A stretch of 39,861 nt of DNA from Longimicrobiales bacterium (GTDB lineage: Bacteria > Gemmatimonadota > Gemmatimonadetes > Longimicrobiales > Gaopeijiaceae). Positions within the stretch are counted from its first letter, which is position 1. Each line of letters starts with the position of its first letter. The stretch lies in contig JANQDZ010000099.1 of NCBI GenBank assembly GCA_028278645.1, forward strand, positions 1 through 39,861. Direction: 5' to 3'. Below the pieces are notes generated by a model. That model saw nothing but the letters and a program-made list of their open reading frames with translations, ran no database searches and was not told the DNA's origin. Below, piece after piece: positions 7,262-37,845 of this stretch. The position numbers and the translations under genes were made by a program.

Positions 7262-7264
7262 GAT

Positions 7265-7283: not shown

Positions 7284-7373
7284 GTGTTGAATGACCAGGA
7301 TTTCCCGTTTCCTTCTCCAGCGGCCCAATCGAGCCTCGGAGCCGGCCCGGCGGGGGGGATCTACAGCAGCCGT

Positions 7374-7829
7374 TTACCTGGCTATGGAAGACCGGTCTTT
7401 CACCTTGATTTCCAACTCATCGTCGGTCCACCCGCTACCCTCCAGCTTTTTCTCCACCCTCTTTCCCAGATCGGTCTCGGCCATATAAACGGTGATGGAA
7501 CCCTGGGCCGTTCCTGTCGAGGACCATCGGCCGACCCAGTTGTCGTAGTCCAGCGTATAGGCTTCGGTCGCAAACGAAAACCCTTCGGGAAGGTACGGCC
7601 GGAGAGTGGTGGGGATCCTTCCTCGATACGCATCGGCAGGCCACCTACCTTTGTCGGCCGAGTGCGCGTGGACCGCCATTCGGACGATGTGGAGGTCGGC
7701 TACCACCGCCGTGGCATGCGTTGCATCGACGGCCGTTTTGAATGTGGACGTACCCATCCCCGCCAGGATCCCTGCAATCAGGATCCCGATCAGGAGCTCG
7801 ACAAGCGTATGTCCGCTTCGGTGGACCAT
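7374..7829 (-). CDS. prepilin-like protein (type II secretion or type IV pilus pseudopilin)
   Basis: 151 aa with a class III signal: MVHRSG, the cleavage glycine G6, then HTLVELLIGILIAGILAGMG with the conserved glutamate at position +5. After the hydrophobic helix comes a globular part with no motif I recognise (DYDNWVGRWSSTG...). Residue +1 is histidine, where phenylalanine is more usual. The length fits a minor pseudopilin of the GspG/GspH class. GGGGGAG stands just ahead of ATG 7829. No secretion or pilus assembly genes are nearby, so it looks like an orphan whose machinery is encoded elsewhere. Confidence 0.75.
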   Translation of the reverse strand: MVHRSGHTLVELLIGILIAGILAGMGTSTFKTAVDATHATAVVADLHIVRMAVHAHSADKGRWPADAYRGRIPTTLRPYLPEGFSFATEAYTLDYDNWVGRWSSTGTAQGSITVYMAETDLGKRVEKKLEGSGWTDDELEIKVKDRSSIAR

Positions 7830-8247
7830 GGTACTCCCCCGCGCACCACTTGCCAGCCGCGACCGAAGATTGGAGGGCTCGGGCGGGCCCGGCCTTTGGA
7901 GACCGGAAACCCCCCGTTGGGTTTTCTCCCGCCGTCGCCCTTTGGAATTGTCGCGGGATGAAGGAGCGGGACGTCACCAGATGTCCGCGGGTCCAGTCTC
8001 GTGCAGCGGGCGTGCCTCAAGCGCTCCGTTGGCGTAGGCCCTTGTCCGGCAATGCCTTAGGTCGCCCGTAGCTCTGAGGCCAAATCGAGGAATCTGTGCA
8101 GAAGGTGAACAGTCCCAGCACCTGGAAGAACGTCAGCCTTGATTCCCGGGGCACCCACCCCCAGTGTTCAAAAAGTAGACGGTGTCCAAGGGCTGGACAG
8201 ATCTCTCCCCCCAATGATCTTCGGACCCTGCCGGCGGAGGAAAACCG
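7830..8247. other. divergent intergenic region, prepilin / sigma-54 activator
   Basis: No gene found. It must hold the promoters of both divergent genes. The clearest signal is the bipartite motif at 8169-8200 close to the activator start, including the inverted repeat TGTCC (8183-8187) with GGACA (8195-8199). The activator has a strong ribosome site, GGAGG, 7 bases before ATG 8248. Confidence 0.5.
8169..8200 (+). promoter_or_regulatory. bipartite operator-like motif, copy 1
   Basis: CAAAAAGT, 16 bases, CTGGACAG. The same two blocks recur with identical spacing at 9632-9663, and inside the spacer AC, TGT and one A are also shared. This copy ends 47 bp before the start codon of the sigma-54 activator gene, suggesting autoregulation. 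Confidence 0.55.
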
Positions 8248-9594
8248 ATGAACGGAACCGTGGTTTTTATCGAGGATGATCAAGAGATCAGGCGGCCGTT
8301 GACTACGTTGCTCCAGCGATCGGGCTTGGAAGTCTATCCGACAGCTACGGGGCAGGAAGGGATCACCGCTTTCGAGGACCTCAGCCCGGACGCTGTTCTC
8401 TTGGACCTCAACCTTCCGGACATCTCAGGGTTCGAAGTCCTGGAACAGATCACCCACCGGGGCGGAACCGTGATCATGCTCACCGGCCAAGGGGATGTGG
8501 AGACGGCGGTCCGCGCCATCCAGTTGGGCGCGGAGAACTTTCTCACCAAGCCCGTGGACACGACTCACCTCGTGGCCGTTCTGGCTCGAGCCATCGAAAA
8601 GTCTCGCCTACGCCGGGAGACCGCTCGCCTCCGGACCAGCGAGATGGCGGGTCCGGACCTGGAAGCCCTGGGGACTTCCCCGCAAGCCCAACAAATCCAG
8701 GAACAGATCCGTCTGTTGGCCGAGAACGATCGGTCCGTGGTCCTCCTGACCGGCGAGTCGGGAACCGGGAAGGGACACGTAGCCCGCTTGATCCATGAAC
8801 TTTCGCCTCGAAACCGGTCGCCTTTTGTCCAGGTGAACTGTGCGGGTTTGTCTTCCCCTCTCCTCGAGAGTGAGCTGTTTGGACACGAGAAGGGAGCGTT
8901 TACGGACGCCAAGGAGCGGAAACTCGGTCTCTTCGAATCGGCTCAAGCCGGAACCGTTTTCCTCGACGAGGTCGGTGAGCTCTCGCCCCAACTCCAACCG
9001 AAGCTTCTTCACGTCCTCGAGGAGCGCACGTTTCGGCGGGTCGGCGGTACCAAGGAGATTCCGGTGGAGGCGCGTGTCCTGGCTGCGTCCAATCGGAACC
9101 TAGGGGAGGACGTTGAAAACGGGCGATTCAGGGAAGACCTTTTCTACCGCCTCAGCGTGTTCCCCCTGGCACTACCGCCGCTGAGGGAACGATCCCGGGA
9201 CGATCTCCTGGTCCTTCTGAGGACGCTCCTAACGGGCCTCTCCCCGAGGACGGGCCATGGATCCAAGAAGATCGATCCCGAAGTCACCGACCGGCTTCTG
9301 AACTACCCCTGGCCCGGAAACGTTCGGGAGATGAGGAATGTGCTGGAGAGAGCGTTGATCCTTTCGGCCAGGAGCGAAACGGTGACCCTGGAGCACATCC
9401 CCGGAGACTTCAAGGAACAGAAATCACCTAGAACCGACATGAACCTCAGAGGCCGATCCATGCGGGACGTGGAACGGCAGCACATTGCTCAGACGCTCAG
9501 GGCCCAACAGGGCAACCGGAGCCGCACGGCCAAAATCCTCGGTGTGTCCAGGACCACCCTCATCAAAAAGATCAAGGAATTTGATCTGGAGTAA
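8248..9594 (+). CDS. sigma-54-dependent response regulator (NtrC/AtoC type)
   Basis: 448 aa in three domains. A receiver (about 4-115) with phospho-acceptor D53 (AVLLDLNLPD), then T/K positions (MLTGQ, FLTKP). An AAA+ activator domain (about 142-370) with Walker A GESGTGKG (169-176), Walker B TVFLDE (236-241), and arginine-finger/sensor motifs (FREDLFYRLSVFPL, YPWPGNVREM). A FIS-type HTH at the end (SRTAKILGVSRTTLIKKIKEF). The sigma-54 contact loop reads GAFTDA (216-221), not the textbook GAFTGA. It should bind enhancer DNA and, when phosphorylated, open sigma-54 promoters. A candidate promoter of that type lies downstream at 9792. The neighbouring polysaccharide locus and c-di-GMP gene suggest a role in envelope or biofilm control, but this is inference. 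No complete sensor kinase is adjacent. Confidence 0.93.
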   Translation: MNGTVVFIEDDQEIRRPLTTLLQRSGLEVYPTATGQEGITAFEDLSPDAVLLDLNLPDISGFEVLEQITHRGGTVIMLTGQGDVETAVRAIQLGAENFLTKPVDTTHLVAVLARAIEKSRLRRETARLRTSEMAGPDLEALGTSPQAQQIQEQIRLLAENDRSVVLLTGESGTGKGHVARLIHELSPRNRSPFVQVNCAGLSSPLLESELFGHEKGAFTDAKERKLGLFESAQAGTVFLDEVGELSPQLQPKLLHVLEERTFRRVGGTKEIPVEARVLAASNRNLGEDVENGRFREDLFYRLSVFPLALPPLRERSRDDLLVLLRTLLTGLSPRTGHGSKKIDPEVTDRLLNYPWPGNVREMRNVLERALILSARSETVTLEHIPGDFKEQKSPRTDMNLRGRSMRDVERQHIAQTLRAQQGNRSRTAKILGVSRTTLIKKIKEFDLE

Positions 9595-9631
9595 GGCACC
9601 GAGCCATGGGGTACTTTGGTGTCGCCCCGTC

Positions 9632-9663
9632 CAAAAAGTGCACACTGTAAACAATCTGGACAG
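9632..9663 (+). promoter_or_regulatory. bipartite operator-like motif, copy 2
   Basis: CAAAAAGT, 16 bases, CTGGACAG, with exactly the spacing of the copy at 8169-8200. It is about 130 bp upstream of the candidate sigma-54 promoter, a sensible place for an activator's enhancer site. Confidence 0.55.
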
Positions 9664-9791
9664 GTCGCCAAGGTCCCTGGCCACAGGGTTTTCACCTTCA
9701 TAGTCCAGATTCTGAACACTTTCCGAAGGTCATCCGGTTTTCGCCAAGACCTTAAATCATTGTCTCATAACAGTTTGCTGTGTTCAGGAGG

Positions 9792-9808
9792 TTGGCATAC
9801 CGTCTGCT
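9792..9808 (+). promoter_or_regulatory. candidate sigma-54 (-24/-12) promoter
   Basis: TTGGCATACCGTCTGCT: the invariant GG (9794-9795) and GC (9806-9807) are 12 bases apart start to start, and TTGGCA matches the -24 element. The -12 half (CTGC) is weaker than TTGC. Transcription would begin near 9819, some 85 bases before the receiver gene. Confidence 0.5.
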
Positions 9809-9902
9809 CCAGGTCGGGTGCGCCCAAAAATCCTGTGTGGTTGATAAGGGGCCTTCCTGCCAGAGGCGAGTTGGGCCCCCTCCCCTCAAGAATAAAGGCA
9901 GT

Positions 9903-10292
9903 ATGGATAACGAGATGATGGCCAGGATCCTGGTGATCGACGACGACCCCGCCGTGAGGCGCACCCTCGCTCGCGGATGCGCGAGGGCCGGGCACGACGT
10001 CGTGGAGGCGGCCGACGGGAAAGCAGCCAAAAGCGAGTTGGATACCGAGCTCCCCGACCTTGTGATTACCGATATCTACATGCCAAACATGGACGGCATC
10101 GAAATCATCAACCTCCTCCGAAAGAGGAAGACTGGAACCAAAGTCCTGGCGATTTCAGGAGGAGGGTTGGCGCGGTCCGGGAACGAGGTCCTCACGGATG
10201 CAGTGCTTCTCGGAGCCCATCGCATACTCCACAAACCGTTCACGCTCGACGAGCTCAACTCCGCGTTGGATGCGCTTCTGAGCGACGCATGA
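9903..10292 (+). CDS. single-domain response regulator (CheY-like)
   Basis: 129 aa, one receiver domain and nothing else. Acidic pocket DDD near 13-15, phospho-acceptor D57 (LVITDIYMPNMDG), serine of the switch in AISGGG, and the conserved lysine in HKPF. Start ATG 9903 follows AAAGGCAG; the longer open frame upstream is not receiver-like. Such proteins signal by protein-protein contact or serve as phosphate sinks. It is the first gene after the candidate sigma-54 promoter and probably the head of a three-gene operon with the HD-GYP protein and the ATPase-domain protein. Confidence 0.9.
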   Translation: MDNEMMARILVIDDDPAVRRTLARGCARAGHDVVEAADGKAAKSELDTELPDLVITDIYMPNMDGIEIINLLRKRKTGTKVLAISGGGLARSGNEVLTDAVLLGAHRILHKPFTLDELNSALDALLSDA

Positions 10293-10332
10293 CCACCTGC
10301 AGCGCTGTATGCGGACCCTGACCGAGGCACCC

Positions 10333-11574
10333 ATGTCCGTATCCTCCCTGAACCAACCGCAGTCCGTCCGAAATGGTCATTCCTACATCCGACACCGGGG
10401 GCCATCACCCCCGGTGTCCGGCCCCACCGCCTCTCCAACGCCCCCGGTGGCACCCTTCGGCATCGATCGTCCAGGCAGGGTCCTGGTGGTGGACGACGAA
10501 CGGGGGATCCGGGAGATGATGCGCCGGACCATGACGATGTTGGGCCACGGGGTCGAGCTGGCCGCCGACGGGATCGAAGCCCTGGCGAAGCTCCCATTGG
10601 ACATCGATCTAGTGATGTTGGACGCCGAGATGCCGAACATGGACGGTTTTGAGGTGGCAAGACGGATCAGGAAAATTCCGGAATACGCCGACCTGCCCAT
10701 CATCATGATCACGGGCCGGAACACCAAGGAGGACAGGGTCAGGGCGGCGGAAGTCGGGATCAACGACTTTGTTCAAAAGCCCTTCGATACCGAGGAACTC
10801 AGGCTCCGCTCCGCCTCGCTGTTGAAGCTGAAGCGGGCCACCGACGAGCTGAAAAGCCACGGCACCGAGCTGGAGAACCTGGTTCGGCGCAGGACCATGG
10901 CCCTTCGAGAGGCCCTCGACGAAGGCGTCGCCGCGAGACGGGCCACTCACGAGGCCCACCTGGACACCATCAAGCGACTGGTGAGGGCAGCGGAGTACAA
11001 AGACGAGGACACCGGGGGACACATCGAGCGCATCGGGATGTTCAGCGAGGTTTTGGCCGACGGTTTGGGCATGGGCCCGAGGGAGACAGAGATCATTCGT
11101 CATGCGGCACCCATGCATGACGTGGGGAAGATCGGGATTCCCGACCGGGTCCTATTGAAGAGGGGCCCTCTGGACGACGATGAGTGGGCCGTGATGCGAT
11201 CCCATACCGTGATCGGGTCCGAGATCCTCCGGGGATCCCCTTCGGAGATCCTCAAAACCGGCGCCGTCATCGCCCTTTCCCATCATGAGAAGTGGAACGG
11301 CACGGGATACCCTCTGGGGCTGGCCGGAGAAGCCATTCCCCTGGAGGGCCGGATCTGCGCCGTGGCTGATGTGTTCGACGCTCTGACCAGCCACCGGCGT
11401 TACCGACCGAAAGGGGCGCTGCCAAACGAAGATGTCTACGAGATGATGGAGGCCGACCGAGGAGAGTACTTCGATCCCGAGATCCTGGACGTCTTCCTCG
11501 CTCGACGTAGGGAGATCGAGAGGATCCAGGAGGCCTATAGAGACGAACCGTCCCGGACCAAAAAATATGGATAA
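10333..11574 (+). CDS. REC-HD-GYP response regulator, probable c-di-GMP phosphodiesterase
   Basis: 413 aa. A proline-rich N-terminal tail (about 25-45), a receiver (48-165) with acceptor D97 (LVMLDAEMPNMDG) and K149, a helical linker (165-210), then an HD-GYP domain with HDVGKIG (H262 D263), HHEKWNGTGYP (317-327) and AVADVFDAL. The domain hydrolyses cyclic di-GMP in characterised members; here the family's ExWDGxGYP has N for D, a variant I cannot assess. I chose ATG 10333 because GAGG lies 5 bases before it; an ATG at 10309 lacks a site. The gene ends by overlapping the next start by 8 bases. Lower c-di-GMP usually reduces polysaccharide output, so it may tune the neighbouring locus. Confidence 0.92.
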   Translation: MSVSSLNQPQSVRNGHSYIRHRGPSPPVSGPTASPTPPVAPFGIDRPGRVLVVDDERGIREMMRRTMTMLGHGVELAADGIEALAKLPLDIDLVMLDAEMPNMDGFEVARRIRKIPEYADLPIIMITGRNTKEDRVRAAEVGINDFVQKPFDTEELRLRSASLLKLKRATDELKSHGTELENLVRRRTMALREALDEGVAARRATHEAHLDTIKRLVRAAEYKDEDTGGHIERIGMFSEVLADGLGMGPRETEIIRHAAPMHDVGKIGIPDRVLLKRGPLDDDEWAVMRSHTVIGSEILRGSPSEILKTGAVIALSHHEKWNGTGYPLGLAGEAIPLEGRICAVADVFDALTSHRRYRPKGALPNEDVYEMMEADRGEYFDPEILDVFLARRREIERIQEAYRDEPSRTKKYG

Positions 11575-12184
11575 CCAATCGCCGCCCCCCAGCGATTCTC
11601 CGTGGCACATCTACGTCAAGCCGTCCGAGACTCAGCCACGATGGCGCTGGATTCCACCCAGCGCCCGACCCGTGCGTCGAGGGGATCCCCGGGTGGATTT
11701 CCGGCTCCGGACCGCCATGGGAAGGCTGAACTATCTCCTGGCGGAGCAAGCTCGGAAGAAGGAGATCGCCTATGCCTGCCGGATCGACCCCGACGTTCCC
11801 GATCGGTTGAAAGGAGACTGGATACGCCTGCGGCAGGTCCTGATCAATCTGATCGGGAACGCCGTCCAGTTCACATCGTACGGCCAGGTAGGCGTCGGAG
11901 TGTCTCTGGCCGACCGAACCAAAACCCGTGCGACCCTATGCTTCACCATCTCGGATACCGGCCGGGGCATCCCCAACGATCGGCTCGAGGCGATCTTCGA
12001 GGTATTCGAACAGAACGAGGTAGCCCGGTACCGCTACCTGGACCTCTTCGGCCGCGGGCTGCCCCTGACCGCCCGACTGGCCGATACCCTGGACGGCCAC
12101 CTCTTCACCCAGAGCAGAGAGGGTGAAGGAACCGCCGTCCACTTCACGGTCGATCTGGAGTTGAGCTCACGGAAAGGTCGTTGA
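11567..12184 (+). CDS. histidine-kinase-like ATPase domain protein without a phospho-acceptor domain
   Basis: 205 aa. The C-terminal two thirds is a GHKL ATPase: N box RLRQVLINLIGNAVQFT (about 87-103), G1 DTGRGIP, an F-box-like IFEVFEQ, a G2-like GRGLPLTARLADTLDG, and a final GEGTAVHFTVDL. The sequence just before it (LNYLLAEQARKKEIAYACRIDPDVP) matches the entry to the ATPase domain of hybrid kinases, but the dimerisation/phospho-acceptor helix pair with its H-box is missing, replaced by about 45 proline-rich residues. The gene overlaps the HD-GYP gene by 8 bases, so the two are co-translated. It could be half of a split kinase, an anti-sigma-like or phosphatase-type regulator, or a domain left after rearrangement. 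The stop is only 4 bases from the convergent phosphatase gene. Confidence 0.82.
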   Translation: MDNQSPPPSDSPWHIYVKPSETQPRWRWIPPSARPVRRGDPRVDFRLRTAMGRLNYLLAEQARKKEIAYACRIDPDVPDRLKGDWIRLRQVLINLIGNAVQFTSYGQVGVGVSLADRTKTRATLCFTISDTGRGIPNDRLEAIFEVFEQNEVARYRYLDLFGRGLPLTARLADTLDGHLFTQSREGEGTAVHFTVDLELSSRKGR

Positions 12185-24487: not shown

Positions 24488-24854
24488 GGTCATGCTCGCG
24501 GCAGGATGACGGCCGCACCAATCGCAGCTAGGAATCTGCTCCTGGCATTGTTCGTTCGGGGTTCAATGGGCCCTGGTAAAAGTCCAGGCGGCAGGAGCGC
24601 GAAGGGGGTCCCCCTCGAAAGCGAGGCGCGTTCTGCTCCCGGGGGACTCTCCGTTAACCCTGCCAGTATTACCGAACCCGGGCCCTATCCGTTTCCCACA
24701 ACTTCCCTGGCTCCCTCGACCGGTTACCCGCTTGCAGGTTCGAACAGCGTAGGTTCCATCCCACTGTACCTCTTTCGTGTTAGGCGGGAAGGTTGTTGAA
24801 CCGAATTGAAAGCCAGATCGTCATGATTTGGAACGTCAGGGAGAAGAGAGCACA
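24488..24854 (+). other. 367-bp gap before the first glycosyltransferase
   Basis: No gene recognised. The odd palindrome GGGGG-T-CCCCC (24604-24614) runs into a hairpin CCTCG-AAAG-CGAGG (24613-24626). A GGGAGAAGAGAG ribosome site precedes ATG 24855. Confidence 0.4.
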
Positions 24855-25998: not shown

Positions 25999-27162
25999 TT
26001 GGCTTCCGCTCCTATAAGGGTGTGCATGCTGATCCCCTCCTTTCGTCCGCTGTTGGGGGGTGCGGAGCGTCAACTCGAAGGGTTGCTCTCGCCGCTAACG
26101 CGCCTTGGAGTGAACCCCTTCGTTCTGACGCGGCGCGTTCCCGGCACTGCTCCGCGGGCCACCGTGAAAGGCGTGCCGGTCATCCGGACCTGGGCTGGGA
26201 CCAGTTCTGTCTGCTTCCTAGCATCTTCTTTTGCTTACCTCGTTCGGCATTCAACCGAATGGGACCTCATCCACGTCCACACCTTAGACTCTCCTTCGCT
26301 GAGCGGGGTTGCAGCTGGTCACCTCTTGGGAAAACCGATCATCGCGAAGGTGACACGGAGCGGATCCACCGCGGTGCTCCATAGACTTCAGAGCAGTTTA
26401 GCCGGCAGAGTTCGCCTGAGATACCTGCGTTCCAATATCCAGCGGTTTGTGGCCATCAGTCCAGCGATCGAGAAGGAACTCCTAGCGTGTGGGGTGGCCC
26501 AACACCAGGTAGCGGAGATCCCAAATGGGGTGGATACCGATCGGTACGTTCCCTTGGCGAGATCAAGGCGTGCCGGGCTCCGAAAGGAACTCGGCTTAAG
26601 AGATGTACCCACTGCCTTGTATTCCGGGCGGCTCATCCCGCGGAAACGTTTGGATTCGCTAATCAGCATATGGCCAGCGATACGGCGATCCGTGCCGGGA
26701 GCCGCACTAGTCATCGCTGGTGAAGGCCCCGAAAGGGGCGCTTTGGAGGCACATGTACAGGACCTCGATCTCATACCTCACGTCAGGATCCTCGGCGAAC
26801 TCGGAACCGACCAAGTACGCGAAATGCTACAGGCCGCCGATTGTTTCGTTCTACCATCTACCTCCGAAGGGCTATCAAACGCCCTCCTAGAGGCAATGTC
26901 GGCTGGGCTCGCTCCTGTGGTATCCTCAATCCCGTCTCATCGTGCGGTAGTGAACTCTGGCCATAACGGTCTGGTTTTTGAGGGACCCGTAAGTCTAACC
27001 AAGCAAGTGGTCCGGTGCCTCTCCGAACCGCAGTTTGCCCGTGATCTCGGGACCCGGGCGCGCGCTACGATCGTCGAACGATTCTCTATCTCAGATGTCG
27101 CTCTCCAACTCGCATCGCTTTATCGGTCTCTGCTCAGCCCACGGGAAGAGAGCGTCTACTAA
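25999..27162 (+). CDS. family 4 glycosyltransferase
   Basis: 387 aa from a TTG start at 25999, with AGGGAAG upstream; GTG 26020 or ATG 26026 are possible but would trim the first beta strand (RVCMLIPSFRPLLGGAERQL). GT-B fold with HVHTLDSPSLSG, VAISPAIEKEL, the donor-site strand ALYSGRLIPRKRLDSLI, VIAGEGPERGAL and the E-x7-E motif in STSEGLSNALLEAMSAGLAPVVSS. A second sugar-adding enzyme of the repeat unit, in a tight run with its neighbours: its TAA shares one base with the next ATG (27162). Confidence 0.9.
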   Translation: MASAPIRVCMLIPSFRPLLGGAERQLEGLLSPLTRLGVNPFVLTRRVPGTAPRATVKGVPVIRTWAGTSSVCFLASSFAYLVRHSTEWDLIHVHTLDSPSLSGVAAGHLLGKPIIAKVTRSGSTAVLHRLQSSLAGRVRLRYLRSNIQRFVAISPAIEKELLACGVAQHQVAEIPNGVDTDRYVPLARSRRAGLRKELGLRDVPTALYSGRLIPRKRLDSLISIWPAIRRSVPGAALVIAGEGPERGALEAHVQDLDLIPHVRILGELGTDQVREMLQAADCFVLPSTSEGLSNALLEAMSAGLAPVVSSIPSHRAVVNSGHNGLVFEGPVSLTKQVVRCLSEPQFARDLGTRARATIVERFSISDVALQLASLYRSLLSPREESVY

Positions 27163-27890
27163 TGAGTCAGTTCATACGGAAGTACCGAGAAACCGGGGAC
27201 CGCAATCATTTAAAAGCCCACTACGAATCAGAAGGTTACCTGCAGATCTATAGGAAGCCGAAGCCTAAGTGGATTGCGAAGTTCCAGATCCTCTCAGACC
27301 TGATCGACCTCCAGCCTGGCCAGCGGCTGCTTGACGTCGGTTGTGCAACGCAAATGTTCCGCCCCTACGCAGAAAGAAGAGGGGGCACATATGAAGGCGT
27401 CGACATCGCCGCGGGCTTCTCTCCCGATTACGTTGCGGACGCCCAATCCCTCGAGGGTGTCCCCAAAGACCACTATGACTGGGTAGTGCTTTCCGATGTC
27501 CTCGAGCACCTCCCAGATCCGGCAGCGGCCTTTCGCGCTGCTGCCCGCGTAAGCCGAGAACTCCTGGCGGTCGTGCCAAACCTCTACCGCCTCGAATCAA
27601 TCCCGTATCTCCCACGCCGTCCCGACGACAGGCATCTCGTCCGCATGAGCCCATGGCGCTGGCTGAGTCTCTGCCAAGCATCCGGTTGGCGTATCAGCCA
27701 CGTTCGGGGGTTCTTCTATGTCCCGAGCATCGCCTTCTACCCCCTGTTTCCCCTAAGGGTGGCGGACCGGCTACTTAGAAACCCTCTATCTCTTGCTGTA
27801 AGCCGCGTGATCGACCGGCGTTGGGCAGACAGGGGTTTTCTCAAGTATCTCGGCCAGGAATTGATCTTTACCGCTCAGAGGCTCTCGTAG
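27162..27890 (+). CDS. class I SAM-dependent methyltransferase
   Basis: 242 aa. Motif I LLDVGCATQMFRPYA (about 49-63), motif II YEGVDIA, and the acidic/aromatic segment YDWVVLSDVLEHLPDP typical of UbiE/Methyltransf_11/23 types, followed by ELLAVVPNLYRLES. The C-terminal third is basic and hydrophobic (FLKYLGQELIF) and may touch the membrane. In this setting it probably O-methylates a sugar or the phosphonate group of the glycan, but the acceptor is a guess. Co-translated with the preceding glycosyltransferase and followed 1 base later by the sulfatase-fold gene. Confidence 0.85.
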   Translation: MSQFIRKYRETGDRNHLKAHYESEGYLQIYRKPKPKWIAKFQILSDLIDLQPGQRLLDVGCATQMFRPYAERRGGTYEGVDIAAGFSPDYVADAQSLEGVPKDHYDWVVLSDVLEHLPDPAAAFRAAARVSRELLAVVPNLYRLESIPYLPRRPDDRHLVRMSPWRWLSLCQASGWRISHVRGFFYVPSIAFYPLFPLRVADRLLRNPLSLAVSRVIDRRWADRGFLKYLGQELIFTAQRLS

Positions 27891-27891
27891 C

Positions 27892-29598
27892 ATGGACAAC
27901 CAGGGGGTCCGCGGCCTCAACTTGATCTGGGTGGTGATTGATTCCGTCCGGAACTACCACACAGACGCCGACGACCGCGGGAAACTACCTGTCATGGACG
28001 CGCTGGCCAGCACCGGGGTCGAGTTCACCAACGTTGTGACTTCAGCGCCCAGCACAATCATGTCAGTCAGTTCAATGATGACCAGTTGGCCGGCGTACTA
28101 CATCAGCCGAAACTATGAGGATTTCAAATACGACAACGCTCTCTTCACCTCCCTCGCCGATATCCTCAGGTACCACGGCTATAGCAATGAGGCAGTTATC
28201 TTTTTCAGAGAAGGACGCGAGAAGTTAAACCCTCTCTTCCAGTCTATCGCTCGGCCATATTGGCCACCCGATCTACGGCATGGAAAAAAGAACTGGACCA
28301 ATGAGGACGTCAGCCGTGTTTTGTATCGGTTTCTCGACGCCGAACCGATGGAACCCTTCTTTCTCTACCTCCACTACAACTGCCGATGGGATCCTCAAAC
28401 CTCATCCACCGTGGAGGCGGCACTCGAGAGAATGGAAGCGGCTGGGCTTCTCAACCGAAGTGTCCTTGTCGTGTGTTCTGACCACGGGTATCCCGACCCT
28501 TCGCGCGGGTTTACCCCGGAAGGCCTCAAGCGTCAGCGGCTAACCCACGACCTGATCCTAACGGATGACAACATCCTCGTGCCCCTATACTTCCAGTTCC
28601 CCGGCTGCCCAGTCGTTACCATCGACCGACCAGTGAGTACGCTGGACATCGCTCCAACAGCCCTAGATCTCCTTGGGGTTCCACCCTCCGCGTCTGATGG
28701 GATCCGGGCGAACCTTAGAGGCTCATCACTGACTCCTCTCCTTCGACCTTCCACGTCCTCCAAGCATTCCGACGCCAAGGTACGAGTAGACGCTCGGCTC
28801 CTGGGCCAAGACAGGCGTGCCACGGCGATCCGTGGGCGCCGCTTCAAGTACGTTGTCCACCATGATCGTATGGGCCCCGACCGAGAGGAACTCTACGACC
28901 TGGAGGAGGATCCACACGAACAGTTGAGTCTGGCCCCGAGTAGTCGCCCGGGCATCCAGAAGAAGCTGGTTGAACTCCGGTCTGAGTTCGAACGAACCGA
29001 ACGAGAAGCTGTCGAGTTCCAATTCAGGTACCTCCTCGAAAAGCTGCGGAGACAGCTTACGGGCGGATCCCTCGACGCCCAGCCCAGCCAAATCCGGTCC
29101 CTTCTCATCTTCGGAGCGTGTCAGCCCGGCTTCCTCGCACCCCTTGCAAGAGTGACTGAGTCTGTCTTCTCCGCTGCCACGGTCGACGTTTTAGTCGAGA
29201 GCGAACTCCCGAATGAAGGATCCATCGCCAGCCAGCGGTGTCGGGTCTTGGACAACCGAAAGAAACGGTTCGATCCCCGTACATTCCCTCGTGCCTACAG
29301 CGATTTGATACCGGGCGTTTACGATATCGTGCTAGTGCCCCTCAGCAACGCTCATGCTCGTGGCTACTCTCACATTCTCAGGATCGCGCGCCGCTTAAAG
29401 GCACGAAAGTTACTCCTCCTCGATTACAATATGCGGCTCTACTATCGTCGGCAGCGCCCATGGTTCTTCCCCTTTCGGGTATTCTGGTCGAAGCGCTCGG
29501 TTTACCATGCGGAGCCCTCGCTTCTCGTCAGCGACGGTTTCATGCTGATAAAGCAGTTGGGCCGCCGCATACCAACCTACTTCCGCACCGGAGAATAG
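27892..29598 (+). CDS. cytoplasmic sulfatase/alkaline-phosphatase-superfamily protein with an unknown C-terminal domain
   Basis: 568 aa. Residues 10-350 follow the sulfatase layout: LIWVVIDSVRNYH (D17), a nucleophile region TSAPST with S51 in the place of the usual Cys/Ser and threonine for the arginine of CxPSR, PFFLYLHY, VVCSDHGYP (D197 H198), VSTLDIAPTALDLLGV and ELYDLEEDPHEQ. No signal peptide or membrane helix is seen, so it should act in the cytoplasm, unlike most sulfatases. A linker of charged residues (about 350-385) leads to a roughly 170-residue C-terminal domain with alternating hydrophobic strands (SLLIFGACQPGFLAPLARV; YDIVLVPLSNAHARGYSHILRIA), Rossmann-like, which I cannot name. 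It could be a hydrolase or a phospho/phosphono-group transferase acting on the glycan intermediate. It sits between the methyltransferase and, after a long gap, the phosphonate genes. Confidence 0.75.
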   Translation: MDNQGVRGLNLIWVVIDSVRNYHTDADDRGKLPVMDALASTGVEFTNVVTSAPSTIMSVSSMMTSWPAYYISRNYEDFKYDNALFTSLADILRYHGYSNEAVIFFREGREKLNPLFQSIARPYWPPDLRHGKKNWTNEDVSRVLYRFLDAEPMEPFFLYLHYNCRWDPQTSSTVEAALERMEAAGLLNRSVLVVCSDHGYPDPSRGFTPEGLKRQRLTHDLILTDDNILVPLYFQFPGCPVVTIDRPVSTLDIAPTALDLLGVPPSASDGIRANLRGSSLTPLLRPSTSSKHSDAKVRVDARLLGQDRRATAIRGRRFKYVVHHDRMGPDREELYDLEEDPHEQLSLAPSSRPGIQKKLVELRSEFERTEREAVEFQFRYLLEKLRRQLTGGSLDAQPSQIRSLLIFGACQPGFLAPLARVTESVFSAATVDVLVESELPNEGSIASQRCRVLDNRKKRFDPRTFPRAYSDLIPGVYDIVLVPLSNAHARGYSHILRIARRLKARKLLLLDYNMRLYYRRQRPWFFPFRVFWSKRSVYHAEPSLLVSDGFMLIKQLGRRIPTYFRTGE

Positions 29599-30435
29599 CG
29601 TCAGGTGTCACTCAGTTCAGGATGTTTGAATTCCACTCTTCCTAGCCTCACCAGAACACCCCGTCATCGAAAATTGGGTTACCTGTTAGCGGCGGCCCAA
29701 AATTGCATAATAGTTGGAGTGAACCCCTGAAGGTGGACAGGAGCGGCCTGGAAGATTGACCACTGTTGTTCATGCTGCGTGATCCCGCTCGAGGCCGAGG
29801 GAGTCGCAGTCAGGTACGGCAAAGCGGTGACGGATTTCGGAAACCAGACCTGGGTTTTCACCACGGAACACACGAGGTTTTGATCTCCGAAGTGGCTTAA
29901 TCGTTCCGAGAAAGAGCTTCGACTTCGAGAAACACCGTGCAACCTGGCTGTGGTTCGCACCAGAAGGGTGAACCTTCTGGTCAGGGTAGCGCGTTACGGA
30001 CCCGTTTCCAGCGGCCGGATGGTCAACAGCTGGACGAGCACGAGAAGGCCGCGCGTCGATCTATGGGAAAGGCTTCCCGCATTCAGAATAAAAAGACACG
30101 GGCTCAAGAAGAGTCGAGGCGTTCACCGCACTGGATCCTCCCTTTGGCCCGTTCCACTTCCAAGGCGCGGCCAGGACTCGAACGTCTGTGTAGTCGGTGT
30201 TCAATGGAACGCTCGGAAGCGGGACCCAAATGATAAGAAGGGTCTCGAACGGGGTTTGGTGCGCGGGTTTGGACGGTCCTTATGCAGATTTGATCCGCTT
30301 TGACCTACCGATCAGGGGTAGAAGGGACTAACCGGGCAGCGGTAGCCGTAGATGACCGCGGTTCTTGAAGAGGCTAAGGCGAGGACCCTCGGAAGACCTA
30401 GGTCCCTAACGGCCACCCTCCATTGGGAGATCACA
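29599..30435 (+). other. 837-bp non-coding gap before the phosphonate genes
   Basis: No recognisable gene. An 8-bp stem with one G-T pair, CGGGACCC/GGGTCTCG around a 12-base A-rich loop, lies at 30220-30247. GCGGTAGC at 30339-30346 resembles the core of an ops element. Several reading frames of about 100 codons overlap at 29940-30300 with no family resemblance. The promoter of the phosphonate genes is probably here; a CATAAT at 29706 is the only -10-like word I noted. Confidence 0.4.
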
Positions 30436-31731
30436 ATGAACAAAACCGTTTATGTAGCCATGAGCGCGGACCTTCTCCACCCGGGGCACTTGAACATTAT
30501 CGCCGAGGCGAGAGAGCTGGGAGAAGTGGTAGTTGGTCTCTTGACGGATGAGGCAATTGCCAGCTACAAGCGGTTGCCATACCTGACATATGAGCAGCGA
30601 AAGGTGGTGATTGAGAACATTGTTGGCGTGTCTCGGGTGATCCCCCAGGAGACTTTAGACTATGTGCCGAACCTGCAGGCGCTGAGGCCCGACTATGTGG
30701 TGCATGGGGATGACTGGAAGACCGGAGTCCAGCGCGAGACGCGAGCCCGAGTTCTTGCGGCCTTGAGAGAATGGGACGGTCAGTTAGTTGAGCCAGAATA
30801 TACGTCAGGGCTCTCATCCACCCGCCTTAACCAGGCGGTTCAGGAGGTGGGGACGACCCCGCAAATCAGACTTAGGCGCTTGAGACGACTACTCGCGGTC
30901 CGACCCTTGGTGCGCTTGATCGAGGCTCACAGCGGGTTGAGCGGCTTGATCGCGGAGAATCTATCGGTCGAACAGGATGGAGTCCCCAAGACATTTGATG
31001 GTGTCTGGGGGAGTAGTCTGACGGACTCCACAGCAAGAGGAAAACCGGATATCGAGTGCGTCGACCTGACATCCCGCCTTCACACACTCAACGACATCCT
31101 AGAGGTGACGACTAAACCGATCATCTACGACGGGGACACGGGGGGTATTCCTGAGCACTTCGTTTTCATGGTGAGAACGCTCGAACGGTTAGGCGTGTCG
31201 GCGGTGATCGTCGAGGACAAAGTGGGGCTGAAGAGGAATTCTCTTTTTGGCACAGACGTAGAACAGAGCCAGGACTCGATCCAGGGATTTTCCCGGAAGT
31301 TATCAATGGGCAAACAGGCCCAGGTAACGGATGATTTTATGATCATTGCACGGATTGAGAGTCTCATCCTGAAAAAGGGGGTAGAGGACGCTCTGGAACG
31401 CGCCAGGGGGTATATTGACGCGGGCGCTGATGGGGTAATGATCCATAGCAAGGAGCCAAACCCAAAGGAGATTCTCGACTTCTGTGACCGATACGGGGGG
31501 CTGGAAGGGAGGGTACCTCTAGTAGCAGTTCCGTCTTCGTACTCACAGGTACGTGAAAAAGAACTGAAGGACGCCGGCGTTCGCATCGTGATTTACGCGA
31601 ACCATCTGCTTCGAGCGGCATATCCGGCGATGATGAGGGTTGCTGAGTTGATCCTGCGCCACGGGAGAGCTCGAGAGGCAGATGATTTATGTCTTTCAGT
31701 CAAGGAGATCATCCGCCTGATCCCAGCTTAG
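30436..31731 (+). CDS. pepM: phosphonate synthesis fusion: cytidylyltransferase plus phosphoenolpyruvate mutase
   Basis: 431 aa, two domains. Residues 1-135 are a nucleotidyltransferase of the CTP:phosphate type ([17 protein letters not shown] with HPGH at 15-18; SSTRL closing motif). Residues about 175-431 are PEP mutase, with [17 protein letters not shown] and the diagnostic EDK-x5-NS motif (E260 D261 K262 ... N268 S269) that separates the mutase from isocitrate lyase relatives. PEP mutase turns phosphoenolpyruvate into phosphonopyruvate, the first C-P bond step. In Fom1, of similar architecture, the first domain attaches CMP to 2-hydroxyethylphosphonate. ATG 30436 has GGGAGA 5 bases ahead; an open frame to 30352 lacks a site. 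The next two genes complete the hydroxyethylphosphonate route. Confidence 0.95.
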
Positions 31732-31757
31732 GCGGGGACCTAAAGTGGGAGTCACAA

Positions 31758-32885
31758 ATGATTGAGTGCCGAGCGTTCTACGATATTCTACTCGACAGGG
31801 GAGTTGAGTTTTTCGCCGGAGTGCCGGACTCGCTCTTGCGCGATTTCTGTTGGTATGTGAATAGACACACACCTTCTGAGCGACACGTGATAGCTGCAAA
31901 CGAAGGAGGAGCGATCGCGTTAGCGTGCGGCTATGGTCTGGCTACCGGCACAATTCCGGTGGTTTACCTTCAGAACGCGGGTCAGGGAAACACAGTAAAT
32001 CCGCTCCTGTCGCTGGCGAACCCTGAGGTTTATGGGATCCCCCTGCTGATGCTGATTGGGTGGCGGGGCGAGCCGGGGAGGTCTGATGAGCCACAACATA
32101 TTCGACAAGGACAAGTCACACTTGGTCTGTTAGAACTGATGGGCATCCCATACAAATTGTTGCCGCTAGAACAAGGGGAGGCTACGGAGTGCTTGGACGA
32201 GCTGATCGAGATCGGCATCGAAAGGGAAACGCCCTTTGCACTAGTGGTCCGAAAAGGAACCTTCGGCAGGTATGCAAACGAGTCCGGTGCGATCGGACCG
32301 GGCAGCGTTACGCGAGAGGAGGCTATTCGAGCCGTCTCGGACTGCCTGAGCAAGCGAGACATTGTCGTTGCTACCACTGGGAAGGCGGGTCGGGAGCTGT
32401 ATGAGTACCGGGAGGACAAAGGGGGTGATCACACCCGTGACTTGTTATGTGTTGGATCCATGGGCCATGCCTCCCAGATCGCCACCGGTATAGCGATAGG
32501 TAGGCCAGACAGGCAAGTGATTTGTCTCGACGGCGACGGTGCCGCCCTGATGCATCTGGGAAGCCTCCCGATCATCGGCGCATCGGGCCTGGAGAACCTG
32601 ACGCACGTCGTGTTGAACAATGGCACACACGATTCGGTGGGGGGACATCCAACCGGCGCCACGCGCGTGTCATACACCGGAGTGGCCGAAGCCTGTGGTT
32701 ATGCTTGGACGGGTGTCGAGGAATCTGAGGACGGAATCCGTAAGGCAATTCAGGCGCTGCGGTCTAGGCCGGGGCCCGGTCTGCTGGAGATTCCACTGAG
32801 CACAGGCGCCCGAGCCGAACTCGGCCGTCCGAAACAGACGCTGCGAAAGTTAGGTAGATCGTTTAAAAGCACCCTCCGGCGGTAA
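31758..32885 (+). CDS. ppd: phosphonopyruvate decarboxylase
   Basis: 375 aa, thiamine-diphosphate enzyme. The activating glutamate is E49 in AANEGGAIALACGYG; the Mg/ThDP motif begins at LDGDGAALMHLGSL (about 257) and ends at VVLNN. FAGVPDSLL near 19-27 and YLQNAGQGNTVNPLLSL are typical of the phosphonopyruvate/sulfopyruvate decarboxylase group. It makes phosphonoacetaldehyde and CO2, the irreversible step that pulls the unfavourable mutase reaction. The adjacent PEP mutase decides for phosphonopyruvate over sulfopyruvate. ATG 31758 follows GTGGGAG; the upstream frame from 31689 overlaps the mutase gene. The stop shares a base with the next start (TAATG). Confidence 0.94.
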   Translation: MIECRAFYDILLDRGVEFFAGVPDSLLRDFCWYVNRHTPSERHVIAANEGGAIALACGYGLATGTIPVVYLQNAGQGNTVNPLLSLANPEVYGIPLLMLIGWRGEPGRSDEPQHIRQGQVTLGLLELMGIPYKLLPLEQGEATECLDELIEIGIERETPFALVVRKGTFGRYANESGAIGPGSVTREEAIRAVSDCLSKRDIVVATTGKAGRELYEYREDKGGDHTRDLLCVGSMGHASQIATGIAIGRPDRQVICLDGDGAALMHLGSLPIIGASGLENLTHVVLNNGTHDSVGGHPTGATRVSYTGVAEACGYAWTGVEESEDGIRKAIQALRSRPGPGLLEIPLSTGARAELGRPKQTLRKLGRSFKSTLRR

Positions 32886-34021
32886 TGCAACTTGAGATAG
32901 TCGGTCCAGGAACTCTTGAGCGGATTAGTAATGTAATCTCCGCTATCGCTCCTCGCCGGGCGGTTCTGGTGACTGGACGCAAGTCCTATCAAGCGTCCGG
33001 TGCCGAGGCGCCGGTGGAAAAGGCTCTCGGCGATGTTGAGGTTGAACGACACGTACGGTCCTCCCGCCTTCTGACCCCCGAGGAGGTCCGGCGCGGCGCG
33101 AGCCGATTCGAGGCCTTCGGGCCCGACCTTGTCGTTGCAGTGGGCGGCGGCGGCGTGCTTGACCTAGCGAAACTGGTCCGCTTCTTCGCGTCAAATCCGG
33201 TCGGTGTGAAATCGCCGCTTTCTAGTACGCAGTCCACGGTCCGGCGCCCACCTCCTCTGGTTGCGATCCCTACCACAGCGGGATCTGGGGCCGAGGCGAC
33301 GCACTTCGCGGTACTCTACGAAGGCGTTGTGAAGCGGTCGATCGCACACGAGTGGATGCTTCCGGATGTAGCCATTGTGGACGCCCAGCTAACAACGTCT
33401 CTCGGGGAACATGATGCTGCCTCGGCCGCGGCGGATGCATTGAGCCAGGCGATTGAATCCTACTGGTGCATTCACTCAACGGCCGCATCCCGGGAGTCCG
33501 CGCAGCGAGCGATGGAACTCGCTCTCGTCCACCTACCTCGTGCGATCACGGAAAGAGACCTAGAGAGCCGAGCGGGTCTGGCTGAAGCCGCACATCTAGC
33601 TGGAAAAGCGATAAACCTCACCAGAACGACTGCGCCGCACGCGATCTCGTATCCGCTGACTGCTCGCTACGGAGTCGCACACGGTCACGCGGTTTGCCTG
33701 ACACTCGGGTCCGTGCTGGAGGCTAACGCCGAAGTGACGGCGGACGATGTTCAAGACCCCCGGGGAGTAGTGCATGTACAGTCAGTCATCCAGGATATCG
33801 TCAGACTGCTAGGTGCGTTAGATCCGGCGGGAGCGCGATTGCGGATTCAGGACCTCATGCAGCAGATGGGGTTGGCTACTCGCCTGCGTGAGGTTGGCGT
33901 AACCAGCTCGGCAGATATCGAATTCGTCGTGTCCCACGGTCTCACAGAAGAAAGGGCCGGCAACAATCCCAGGCGACTCACGGAGGACCAGGTGCGTAAG
34001 ATTCTCATTGGGATCTGGTGA
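32885..34021 (+). CDS. iron-type alcohol dehydrogenase, probable phosphonoacetaldehyde reductase
   Basis: 378 aa. NAD(P)-binding VAVGGGGVLDLAK (84-96) and IPTTAGSGAEAT (128-139) are standard for group III dehydrogenases. Metal ligands in the usual D, H, H, H pattern are D184, H252 and H266, but the second position (DALTHA in relatives) is Q188 (DALSQA). Placed directly after the decarboxylase, with overlapping stop and start, it most likely reduces phosphonoacetaldehyde to 2-hydroxyethylphosphonate, the role of FomC and PhpC. This replaces the aminotransferase that would lead to 2-aminoethylphosphonate. No symbol is given because the exact subgroup needs a tree. Confidence 0.88.
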   Translation: MQLEIVGPGTLERISNVISAIAPRRAVLVTGRKSYQASGAEAPVEKALGDVEVERHVRSSRLLTPEEVRRGASRFEAFGPDLVVAVGGGGVLDLAKLVRFFASNPVGVKSPLSSTQSTVRRPPPLVAIPTTAGSGAEATHFAVLYEGVVKRSIAHEWMLPDVAIVDAQLTTSLGEHDAASAAADALSQAIESYWCIHSTAASRESAQRAMELALVHLPRAITERDLESRAGLAEAAHLAGKAINLTRTTAPHAISYPLTARYGVAHGHAVCLTLGSVLEANAEVTADDVQDPRGVVHVQSVIQDIVRLLGALDPAGARLRIQDLMQQMGLATRLREVGVTSSADIEFVVSHGLTEERAGNNPRRLTEDQVRKILIGIW

Positions 34022-34088
34022 GAGGAGCGCGAAATCATGATTGTATTCAACGGTAGGTGGGAGATTGCCGTTTAGGCATCAAAACCCG

Positions 34089-35255
34089 ATGAAGGGTCGC
34101 ATAGTTTTTGTAACCGCATCGGCGCGGGCACAGTGGTTGTTCCTAGACGGGCAAAACCGATTCATGGCGGAGCGGGGTTACGAGCTTCATGCGGTCGCAT
34201 CTTCCGGGCCTTATCTGGATCGCATAGCTGAGAGAGACGGTGTTGTACCCCATGCCGTGGAGATCGCGAGGGCGGTAGCACCCTTCCGTGACGTCATTTC
34301 GCTAGGTCAGCTGTACTGTCTGTTCCTTAGGATTCGGCCGGACATCGTCCACCTGAGCACCCCCAAAGCCGCGTTTCTCGGAGCAATCGCCGCGACACTT
34401 GCACGGGTCCCGGTGCGACTATTCCTGGTGCGCGGGCTCGTTAGCGCGAGCGCGCAGGGTGTGCGGAGAGCCATTTATAAATGGAGTGAGAGGCTCACGG
34501 CCCGGTTGTGTCACCGGTGCGTTTGTGTTAGCCGGTCCTTGTTGACGTACGCCCGGGACGAAGGAATCCTGGCGAACGATAGTGGAATAGTGATTGCGAA
34601 CGGAATGTCGAACGGCATCAAGCTTGCACGTTTTGCGATCGGGGAGGCCGGCCACGAGACGGTTGGCGGTGCGGCCGTCGCAGGCAAAATCGCTGGCACC
34701 ACGGCAGTCCTGGGATATGTTGGGCGGCTCACTCCGGAGAAGGGAATCGCGGATCTGGCCCGCGCCTGGGCTGTCTTGCGGGAGGAAGTGCCTGATCTCA
34801 AACTGCTCCTTGTCGGTACGTGGGAGAGAGAGCATCCCGTGGAGGATCGAATCCGCGCGGCGCTCTGTGAGGACCCAAGGGTGGTCATTACCGGGGATGT
34901 GGAGGACCCGGCTCCGTATTACAGGATGATGTCGGTGCTCGTTCTCCCGTCGTATCGGGAAGGGTTTCCCAATGCCCCTATGGAGGCAGCAGCGTCGGGT
35001 ATACCGGTGATCGCTTCGAGGGTGGTCGGGAACGTCGATGCCGTCCTCGATGGCGTAACCGGGAAACTGGTGCCCGTTGGTGACCCGGAAGAATTGAGTC
35101 GTGCTATTTTGCGGTACATCTGTGATCCTGATTTGCGAGCCCGCCATGGGCAGGCGGGGTTTGCCCGCGTGGCAAGGGACTTCCAGCAGGAACGCATCTG
35201 GGAGGGCTTCGAGCGGGTGTACGGCAAGCTACTTGAGGCTCGGGCGCAGCTATGA
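34089..35255 (+). CDS. family 4 glycosyltransferase
   Basis: 388 aa, GT-B fold. The N-terminal part (FVTASARAQWLFLDGQNRFMAERGYELHAVAS, split) and DIVHLSTPKAAFLGAIAATLARVPVRLFLVRG match the subgroup that includes capsular and PglA-like transferases acting on undecaprenyl-linked sugars. Donor-site motifs: GYVGRLTPEKGIADLARAW, LLLVGTWERE, and E-x7-E in SYREGFPNAPMEAAASGIPVIAS. It may add the second sugar after the initiating transferase. ATG 34089 is preferred over an upstream TTG, although its ribosome site is weak. It starts 67 bases after the dehydrogenase and is the last plus-strand gene of the locus. Confidence 0.88.
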   Translation: MKGRIVFVTASARAQWLFLDGQNRFMAERGYELHAVASSGPYLDRIAERDGVVPHAVEIARAVAPFRDVISLGQLYCLFLRIRPDIVHLSTPKAAFLGAIAATLARVPVRLFLVRGLVSASAQGVRRAIYKWSERLTARLCHRCVCVSRSLLTYARDEGILANDSGIVIANGMSNGIKLARFAIGEAGHETVGGAAVAGKIAGTTAVLGYVGRLTPEKGIADLARAWAVLREEVPDLKLLLVGTWEREHPVEDRIRAALCEDPRVVITGDVEDPAPYYRMMSVLVLPSYREGFPNAPMEAAASGIPVIASRVVGNVDAVLDGVTGKLVPVGDPEELSRAILRYICDPDLRARHGQAGFARVARDFQQERIWEGFERVYGKLLEARAQL

Positions 35256-36354: not shown

Positions 36355-37179
36355 TCAATCAGGCTCCTGCTTTTTTCGCGTACGGGCGTTATCGAGGGCC
36401 AGGTAGATACGTTGCGGATTTGCTGGAAGAAAGGGGAGAAGGGTGCGAGCGAGAAAAGGCAGGTCCTGAGACGCTGGTAGGGACCGGTTCCGGTACTTCT
36501 CAGGACTACGGGTGTCAATGAGCGGCCGGTCGACAAACCTACATAATCGGTCGAATTCTCCACCGCCATGGGTTGGATCGGTCATCAAACTCTGATAGTT
36601 GATGACGATGCTCGGTGCCTTCGAACAGCGGATGACACTCAAAATATTCTGGTTGTACCGCGTCCAAGCGTGGAGAACCCGATAAAGCCTGAAAACGTGA
36701 AATTGATCCCAACCTGTGCATCGATACCGCTTGAGGAGTTCGGTTATCGGCCGGAATACGATGATGAGGCGGTGCGGCGGTAGTTCAGGCTGGATAATGG
36801 GGTAGGTCAGGCACAGCCGCGGATCCTTGAGGCCCCAATCCCCCCACCGTTGATCACAATCGTCCACGATCTGGAGCAGGGCGCGGCGGTGACAATCGTC
36901 CAGAGCGAAAGGCAACCGCCATGCGATGGAAGAACTGTGATAGAGGCCTTCAGCATAAGCGGTGGTGCCGCGTTTAAGCGACTGAAAAACGGGTGGGAAC
37001 ATTCTCCCCCGGAGAAGGCTGTGGTTGAGAGCGACGATCGACGGTCTTTCATAGAGGATCCCCTGATCATAATCCCTTGTAACGTCCACGTCCTCATCCA
37101 TATTAATCCCAGAGGCGTGCAGCATCTGGGATATCAGCGTGGTTCCCGACTTATGCATGCCAAGGACAATATAGATCAT
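36355..37179 (-). CDS. PAPS-dependent sulfotransferase-like protein
   Basis: 274 aa from ATG 37179. It opens with MIYIVLGMHKSGTTLISQML, the 5'-phosphosulfate loop (GMHKSGTT, 7-14) of PAPS sulfotransferases, directly after the first strand, which is why I reject the longer frame to 37419. Farther on are DWGLKDPRLCLTYP and HRLIIVFRP, the region that binds the 3'-phosphate (R/S positions), and APSIVINYQSLMTDP. It should move sulfate from PAPS to a hydroxyl on the glycan or another acceptor. No clear ribosome site is seen. It is on the opposite strand from most of the locus, downstream of wzx. Confidence 0.82.
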   Translation of the reverse strand: MIYIVLGMHKSGTTLISQMLHASGINMDEDVDVTRDYDQGILYERPSIVALNHSLLRGRMFPPVFQSLKRGTTAYAEGLYHSSSIAWRLPFALDDCHRRALLQIVDDCDQRWGDWGLKDPRLCLTYPIIQPELPPHRLIIVFRPITELLKRYRCTGWDQFHVFRLYRVLHAWTRYNQNILSVIRCSKAPSIVINYQSLMTDPTHGGGEFDRLCRFVDRPLIDTRSPEKYRNRSLPASQDLPFLARTLLPFLPANPQRIYLALDNARTRKKQEPD

Positions 37180-37845
37180 CGTTATGAGGCGCGGATTTCG
37201 ACGACTGGAACCGGCTGAGTCCGAGGCAGGAGGGCCTTCAAGTCCAAGGCAAGGAGCCAACCTTTCGGTACGAATCGACGGCTGCGGCGTAGGGCCCGCC
37301 GGGATCGTCTGGGATGAGTGGACTTCGTTTTTACTTTTCCCATTGGAGCGCTGATTTTGTGATGATGGGGTGAGCCTGATGGCCCTTATGGTCCGAAATG
37401 GTATCGGCGAAATTGACATATCCGACAGGTTCGTGCCAGTGCTCTAGGGGCGTTGGGGTGACGACGAGTGTGGCCATCCGGTGCCTGCCGTGCGCGACAG
37501 CCTCCAGGAATCGCAGCGTTCGATCCGATTCCACGGAGGCGCTCTGAACTGCCCCCAACCATGGTACAACCTCGAGGATCAGTCCAACGGTTCGTGCGGT
37601 TGCCCCTACTCGGGAGGCTCAATCTGGAGCCTTCTGCGGTTGCCCTGGATCAACAGGCAGATGGGAGCGCCGTTTTCTGGCGGATCGAGAGTTCACCAAC
37701 CGGTTTGACGGCCGGGCCTTGAGACGGGTACTCGTCGTACGAGCAAAAATGGGCTGAGGCTTCACTCCCTTCGGCAGAACTCGGACCAAGCATTCTCCTC
37801 GTCTCGGCGCGGGGAGAAACGAGGACCCACGGATCTCTTTAAGGG
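37180..37845 (-). other. 666-bp gap between wzx and the sulfotransferase gene
   Basis: No gene recognised. The frame running upstream of the sulfotransferase start (to 37419) is serine/proline-rich and unlikely to be translated. TCCTCGT/ACGAGGA (37796-37802 with 37819-37825) forms a 7-bp stem 21 bp beyond the wzx stop. A promoter for the sulfotransferase may be here. Confidence 0.4.

Follow-up and report, generated by a model that had tools for sequence, protein, structure and literature searches.

A sulfatase-fold protein without a formylglycine site as a candidate cytosolic phosphorus-group transferase in a Longimicrobiales polysaccharide locus

The window analysed here, a 39,861-nucleotide stretch of a Longimicrobiales contig, contains an exopolysaccharide locus in which profile matches identify export and chain-length proteins, a sugar transferase, a Wzy-like ligase and a Wzx-like flippase. 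Surrounded by these genes, a forward-strand open reading frame (27892..29598; ATG at 27892, stop at 29598) encodes a 568-amino-acid protein with a sulfatase fold, identified by matches to PF00884 and SGSH_C and by fold search, which we consider a candidate phosphorus-group transferase. Two GT4-type glycosyltransferase genes precede it, the nearer at 25999..27162 (+; Glycos_transf_1), followed by a class I S-adenosylmethionine (SAM) methyltransferase gene (27162..27890, +; Methyltransf_23) that ends 2 bases ahead of the start of the sulfatase-like gene. Between the Wzy-like and GT4 genes is a 97-amino-acid open reading frame without a Pfam match (24506-24799). On the minus strand, a sulfotransferase-family gene (36355-37419; Sulfotransfer_3, 28.9 bits) has a PAPS-type GMHKSGTT motif, and sulfation of the polysaccharide by its product is possible.

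Downstream, also on the forward strand, are the genes that the preliminary description had named as the source of an activated phosphonate donor, and profiles matched all three. These are a cytidylyltransferase–PEP mutase fusion (pepM, 30436..31731; TIGR02320, 388 bits, cut-off 320; CTP_transf_like), a phosphonopyruvate decarboxylase (Ppd, 31689..32885; TIGR03297, 434 bits, cut-off 312) and an Fe-type alcohol dehydrogenase (32885..34021; Fe-ADH), the best NCBIfam match of which, Phn_Fe-ADH, falls under its cut-off. The reading frame of the fusion is listed from 30352, and the likely start at 30436 was chosen by inspection. The dehydrogenase is likely to be a phosphonoacetaldehyde reductase with hydroxyethylphosphonate as its product in this genome. 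The fused cytidylyltransferase domain of Fom1 is reported to produce CMP-hydroxyethylphosphonate (PMC6697681) and, by likeness, that of the window protein would make the same compound. Next in line is a further GT4-type glycosyltransferase gene (34041..35255, +; Glyco_trans_1_4, 119.6 bits). Between the end of the sulfatase-like gene and the probable start of pepM are 837 bases (29599-30435) that hold no convincing gene and in which no promoter- or terminator-like site was found. Because of this gap, we rejected a tight operon of the two genes and treat them as neighbours that are not tightly linked.

We searched 84,980 species, each represented by a single genome, using two conserved peptides as seeds, and found at least three full-length relatives of the sulfatase-like protein, a lower bound because of the seeding. 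The first (genome G030, from the same GTDB family as the window genome) is also 568 amino acids in length, is 39% identical to the window protein in pairwise alignment and lies within a polysaccharide cluster. The others come from a Proteobacteria metagenome-assembled genome (MAG; L022) and a Desulfosudis MAG (L021), the latter again in a polysaccharide cluster. The Desulfosudis homologue has a sulfotransferase-like gene with a GMPRSGTT motif (L110:1017-2165) at a distance of about 10 kb. Beyond G030, the 121 genomes searched from the window's family gave no further member, and none was found in 90 genomes of the L022 class or in viral contigs; the plasmids searched yielded ordinary sulfatases or nothing. 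Two other candidates were rejected, one being an ordinary sulfatase with the Cys motif (L023) and the other scoring only 18.8 bits (L024).

The catalytic domain (about residues 1-380; 27892..29031, +) scores 62 bits against PF00884 (cut-off 25) and 33.7 bits against PF16347 (SGSH_C), and choline-sulfatase profiles also match the protein. Residues 7-377 of an AlphaFold model of the whole protein (pTM 0.66, mean pLDDT 65) align with solved sulfatases at Z of about 27 (7stv: Z 27.7, 326 residues, rmsd 3.4) and, at Z 23.8, with LtaP, a lipoteichoic acid synthase, in keeping with the alkaline-phosphatase-superfamily (AP-superfamily) domain recognized in the preliminary description. That account had placed an unusual nucleophile region at the residues SAPST, which proves to be four residues out of register. 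Alignment with Cys-type PF00884 proteins encoded elsewhere in the genome sets Thr55 (codon 28054..28056, +), the residue with which SAPST ends, opposite the formylglycine-forming Cys of the CxPxR motif. The motif here reads T-I-M-S-V, and S-I-L-A-A in the Desulfosudis homologue, in which Ser replaces Thr55. Across the family, Val, Leu or Ala occupies the Arg position of CxPxR, and D17 is followed by Ser or Gly in all four members, where sulfatases have the second Asp of their metal motif. Five residues, D17, T/S55, D197, H198 and H219, are retained in four of four members, the catalytic domains of which are only about 29-41% identical.

Replacement of the Cys by Thr55 or Ser, together with loss of the CxPxR Arg and of the second metal Asp, argues strongly, at the level of sequence, that the protein is not a formylglycine sulfatase, and pure sulfatase activity is unlikely because the CxPxR motif is lost. 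With Thr in place of Cys, the formylglycine nucleophile of phosphonate monoester hydrolase is absent too. A protein that scores as a ‘sulfatase’ in such a cluster does not warrant annotation as one. The location of the protein points the same way. Its highest 19-residue Kyte–Doolittle mean is 1.31, and hydropathy gave no sign of a signal peptide, membrane helix or N-terminal hydrophobic segment in it or in its three homologues, as expected from the earlier reading that it lacks an export signal. Some evidence does favour a sulfatase or an enzyme of sulfate-group remodelling tied to the nearby PAPS sulfotransferase, namely the PF00884 and choline-sulfatase profile matches and the sulfotransferase-like genes near the window member and, by motif, on the contig of the Desulfosudis homologue. 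We consider this improbable, however, given the missing formylglycine site, the Cys retained by the genome's other PF00884 proteins in the alignment and the lack of an export signal; furthermore, no sulfotransferase motif was detected in the vicinity of the G030 and L022 members.

The set D17, T55, D197 and H198 instead resembles the pattern of LtaS/EptA-type phosphotransferases, in which the D/T/D/H active site combines a Thr nucleophile with Asp/Glu and Asp-His metal ligands. The remainder of the protein, about residues 390-568 (29059..29598, +), is a fast-evolving domain that matches no Pfam family and has a Rossmann-like beta/alpha alternation in the AlphaFold model. Relative to the window protein, its identity to the homologues is 19-26%, compared with 34-41% for the catalytic domain. 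When modelled alone with three sequences, the domain again showed strand/helix alternation of the Rossmann type, at low confidence (mean pLDDT 63). A fold search with this low-confidence model returned generic Rossmann matches (methyltransferases and dehydrogenases), the best being the methyltransferase MmcR (Z 10.8 over 121 residues), and the glycine-rich SAM motif is not conserved among the homologues. We found no relatives of the domain in 59 related genomes, and only marginal sequence matches in the PDB. Homology to PF04464 was rejected after comparison with PF04464 proteins, including that of L038, revealed no similarity. Because the matches are generic and the model is of low confidence, we assign no function to this domain. 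The preliminary description, which saw here a Rossmann-like domain of about 170 residues that it could not place, is thus upheld; the structure prediction and fold search that it had proposed favour the fold, at low confidence, but not a specific function.

The clearest context for the family comes from the Proteobacteria homologue, which lies in an overlapping series of four genes that encode a kinase (6103-8535), a C26 amidase (8525-9190), an NTP transferase (9088-9948) and, at the end, the sulfatase-like protein (9917-11605). The kinase scores 701 bits against PRK05849 (cut-off 501); for the amidase, the best match, under its cut-off, is gamma-glutamyl-CDP-amidate hydrolase. A PEP-synthase-like kinase, a C26 amidase and a cytidylyltransferase in series form the arrangement of the Campylobacter jejuni phosphoramidate pathway. 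The L022 genome yielded no PEP mutase match above cut-off. This operon also bears on the reading of the protein as a hydrolase, similar to a phosphodiesterase or pyrophosphatase, that removes head groups or breaks down surplus activated donor. Members of the AP superfamily with a Thr nucleophile include nucleotide pyrophosphatases and phosphodiesterases, and there is a weak match to PF01663. At 21.1 bits, however, that match is under its cut-off, a free enzyme that hydrolysed the donor would work to no purpose, and no transferase would be left in the L022 operon, which makes a hydrolase quite unlikely, although less so than a sulfate-related role.

The other contexts are looser. Genome G030 carries a PEP mutase–cytidylyltransferase fusion that is 60% identical to that of the window, on another contig than the sulfatase-like gene, and no Ppd was found in 38.5 kb around it. 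In both G030 and the window, the sulfatase-like gene is surrounded by glycosyltransferase and methyltransferase genes. Conserved synteny with the methyltransferase was nevertheless rejected, as the two upstream methyltransferases have no similarity detectable at E 1e-4. The Desulfosudis genome has neither a PEP mutase nor a glutamine kinase above cut-off, no cytidylyl-activation gene was detected in about 61 kb around its homologue, and it carries a PF04464 gene elsewhere. These observations suit a cytosolic AP-superfamily transferase that handles some other phosphate-linked group in polysaccharide assembly, so that the phosphonate and phosphoramidate company would be partly coincidence; the Desulfosudis cluster without a recognized activation pathway, the glycosyltransferase and methyltransferase neighbours in the window and G030 and the separate contig of the G030 pepM all speak for it. 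The overlap of the L022 gene with a phosphoramidate triad and the missing transferase of the window genome speak against it, and we regard it as unlikely, albeit the strongest of the alternatives.

The preliminary description had named close homologues occurring mostly without phosphonate genes as evidence against its proposal, and this half applies. Of the three homologues, one has a PEP mutase elsewhere in its genome, on a separate contig; another shares its operon with a phosphoramidate pathway, in a genome with no PEP mutase above cut-off; and the third has neither. Of 395 genomes surveyed across the phylum, 11 gave a PEP mutase match (E ≤ 1e-70) and 2 a member of the sulfatase-like family; both of the latter are also PEP mutase-positive (Fisher's exact p 0.0007, window included). 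Because the window was chosen for that very pairing, we repeated the calculation without it; the single remaining member is PEP mutase-positive (1/1, p about 0.025). These statistics are weak, and the L022 operon and the comparison of transferase slots weigh more. In three of the four cases, the common factor is a cytidylyl-activated phosphorus group and not a C–P bond.

We therefore turn to which transferase fills the slot in comparable clusters. All three clusters with pepM, ppd and Fe-ADH genes, of the hydroxyethylphosphonate type (L038, L039 and L065), have a PF04464 gene beside the pathway, and all four of the aminoethylphosphonate (AEP) type (L041, L042, L043 and L045) have a CDP-alcohol phosphotransferase; neither was present within the stretch fetched for pepM loci L037, L040 and L044. 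One of these operons, encoding PEP mutase, decarboxylase, phosphonoacetaldehyde reductase and a CDP-glycerol-phosphotransferase-like protein inside a polysaccharide cluster, is from a Segatella copri plasmid record (L065:8287-13761). Near another, in a related genome, is a second, unrelated PF00884 protein (29 bits; L039:7481-9115) with a hydrophobic-looking N terminus. Phosphoramidate triads on plasmids are accompanied by PF04464 in Vibrio (L052) and, weakly, in L051, and by a CDP-alcohol phosphotransferase in Agrobacterium (L054); the triads with PF04464-like transferases occur in Pseudohalocynthiibacter (L051 8323-12829) and Vibrio alfacsensis (L052 8443-14018). Triads of the glutamine-kinase type with adenylyl-sulfate-kinase-like genes were also seen outside the genus Campylobacter, on plasmids of Azospirillum and a Deltaproteobacterium (L049, L050, L053 and L056). 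The adenylyl-sulfate-kinase-like and sulfotransferase-like genes near the Azospirillum triads (L050 and L053) fit a 3'-phosphorylated donor.

No PF04464, CDP-alcohol phosphotransferase or LicD gene lies beside the phosphonate pathway of the window. Profile searches found neither PF04464 nor LicD (PF04991) in the 4.9 Mb assembly of the window genome, which agrees with the earlier remark that a LicD-like transferase is missing; LicD had no match in the three homologue genomes, and both families are absent from genomes G030 and G424 too. Because the usual phosphotransferases are absent beside the window pathway, and PF04464 and LicD from the entire genome, the sulfatase-like gene is the remaining candidate for the transfer step in the window, as it is in L022. 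The transfer might alternatively be carried out by the GT4 gene at 34041-35255 or by a distant CDP-alcohol phosphotransferase, leaving the sulfatase-like protein an accessory or structural role. That GT4 gene directly follows the dehydrogenase, exactly where L038, L039 and L065 hold their PF04464 gene, but it scores as a normal glycosyltransferase, and the sulfatase-like family has kept its active-site residues. We consider this the least probable reading, ranking it below a sulfate-related role, a phosphodiesterase-like hydrolase, a transferase of another phosphate group and, first, a transferase of cytidylyl-activated groups.

We hypothesize, at about an even chance, that the sulfatase-like protein is a cytosolic AP-superfamily transferase that moves a cytidylyl-activated phosphorus head group onto a hydroxyl group of a surface polysaccharide under assembly. 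The analysis itself gave the fold, the residues of the active site, the sequence features of a cytosolic protein and the neighbouring genes; substrate, direction and transfer itself are drawn from genomic context. The donor would be CMP-2-hydroxyethylphosphonate in the window and cytidine diphosphoramidate in L022. A metal bound by D17, D197 and H198 would activate Thr55, which would attack the donor phosphorus with release of CMP, and the head group would then pass from Thr55 to a sugar hydroxyl of a lipid-linked oligosaccharide, with the C-terminal domain possibly binding nucleotide or acceptor. Several observations count against this explanation. The sulfatase-like gene adjoins a methyltransferase gene and a GT4 gene and is 837 bases from pepM; the G030 pepM is on another contig and has no Ppd around it; the Desulfosudis MAG shows no activation gene in about 61 kb around its homologue and has a PF04464 gene elsewhere; and the family numbers only four members, a lower bound from a peptide-seeded scan. 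The best-supported role is that of a phosphorus-group transferase, not a phosphonate-specific one. Of the phosphono-group transferase in the preliminary description, the kind of enzyme is supported by the active site, the L022 operon and the vacant slot; a donor restricted to phosphonates is not, as L022 has a phosphoramidate pathway and no PEP mutase.

It is tempting, if somewhat short of an even bet, to see a new class of cytosolic AP-superfamily transferases that place CMP-activated phosphono, phosphoramidyl or similar groups on surface polysaccharides and that have, in evolution, taken over from PF04464, CDP-alcohol phosphotransferase and LicD enzymes in two or more pathways of different chemistry. 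Confirmation would add a kind of transferase that is new to this setting. The attachment of activated phosphonates and phosphoramidates to bacterial glycans is largely unsettled, and a small soluble family that accompanies both kinds of donor would offer a directly testable transferase. Rice et al. describe the tailoring steps after the mutase as ‘enigmatic’ (PMC6697681). We found no literature linking phosphonate or pepM with a sulfatase, and sulfatases go unmentioned in the phosphonate and phosphoramidate transfer papers searched for that word.

Among known systems, the C. jejuni phosphoramidate capsule modification (Cj1415–Cj1418, Cj1421/Cj1422) has the same kinase, amidase and cytidylyltransferase types as the L022 operon, which differs in showing no 3'-kinase gene. 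In C. jejuni, glutamine is phosphorylated on nitrogen, CDP-linked (diphosphoramidate) intermediates follow and the donor is of the 3'-phospho-CDP type (PMC6429109), with Cj1421/Cj1422 as the transferases (PMC3907429). LicD phosphotransferases are alike in the proposed role, the transfer of a CDP- or CMP-activated group to a glycan, but the sulfatase-like protein has no PF04991 match. CDP-glycerol glycerophosphotransferases (PF04464, TagF-like) fill the same slot in hydroxyethylphosphonate and phosphoramidate clusters; the sulfatase-like protein belongs to another Pfam family, has no PF04464 match and has a dissimilar C-terminal domain. With S1 family sulfatases (PF00884, for example, choline sulfatase, S1_16) it shares the fold, the D..D-H core and an SGSH_C subdomain with the LYDL-DP-E motif, but it has Thr or Ser for Cys, has lost the CxPxR Arg and second metal Asp, is cytosolic, has a shortened region at residues 168-190 and carries the extra C-terminal domain. 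The LtaS/EptA/OpgB phosphotransferases share the superfamily fold (LtaP, Z 23.8) and the acid/Thr/Asp-His pattern. These enzymes are membrane-anchored and extracytoplasmic and use lipid donors, whereas the sulfatase-like protein has no membrane segment and sits among nucleotide-activation genes. To our knowledge, AP-superfamily transferases are known only as membrane enzymes with lipid donors, and we know of none with nucleotide-activated donors; if our hypothesis is true, the superfamily gains non-membrane transferases with non-lipid donors.
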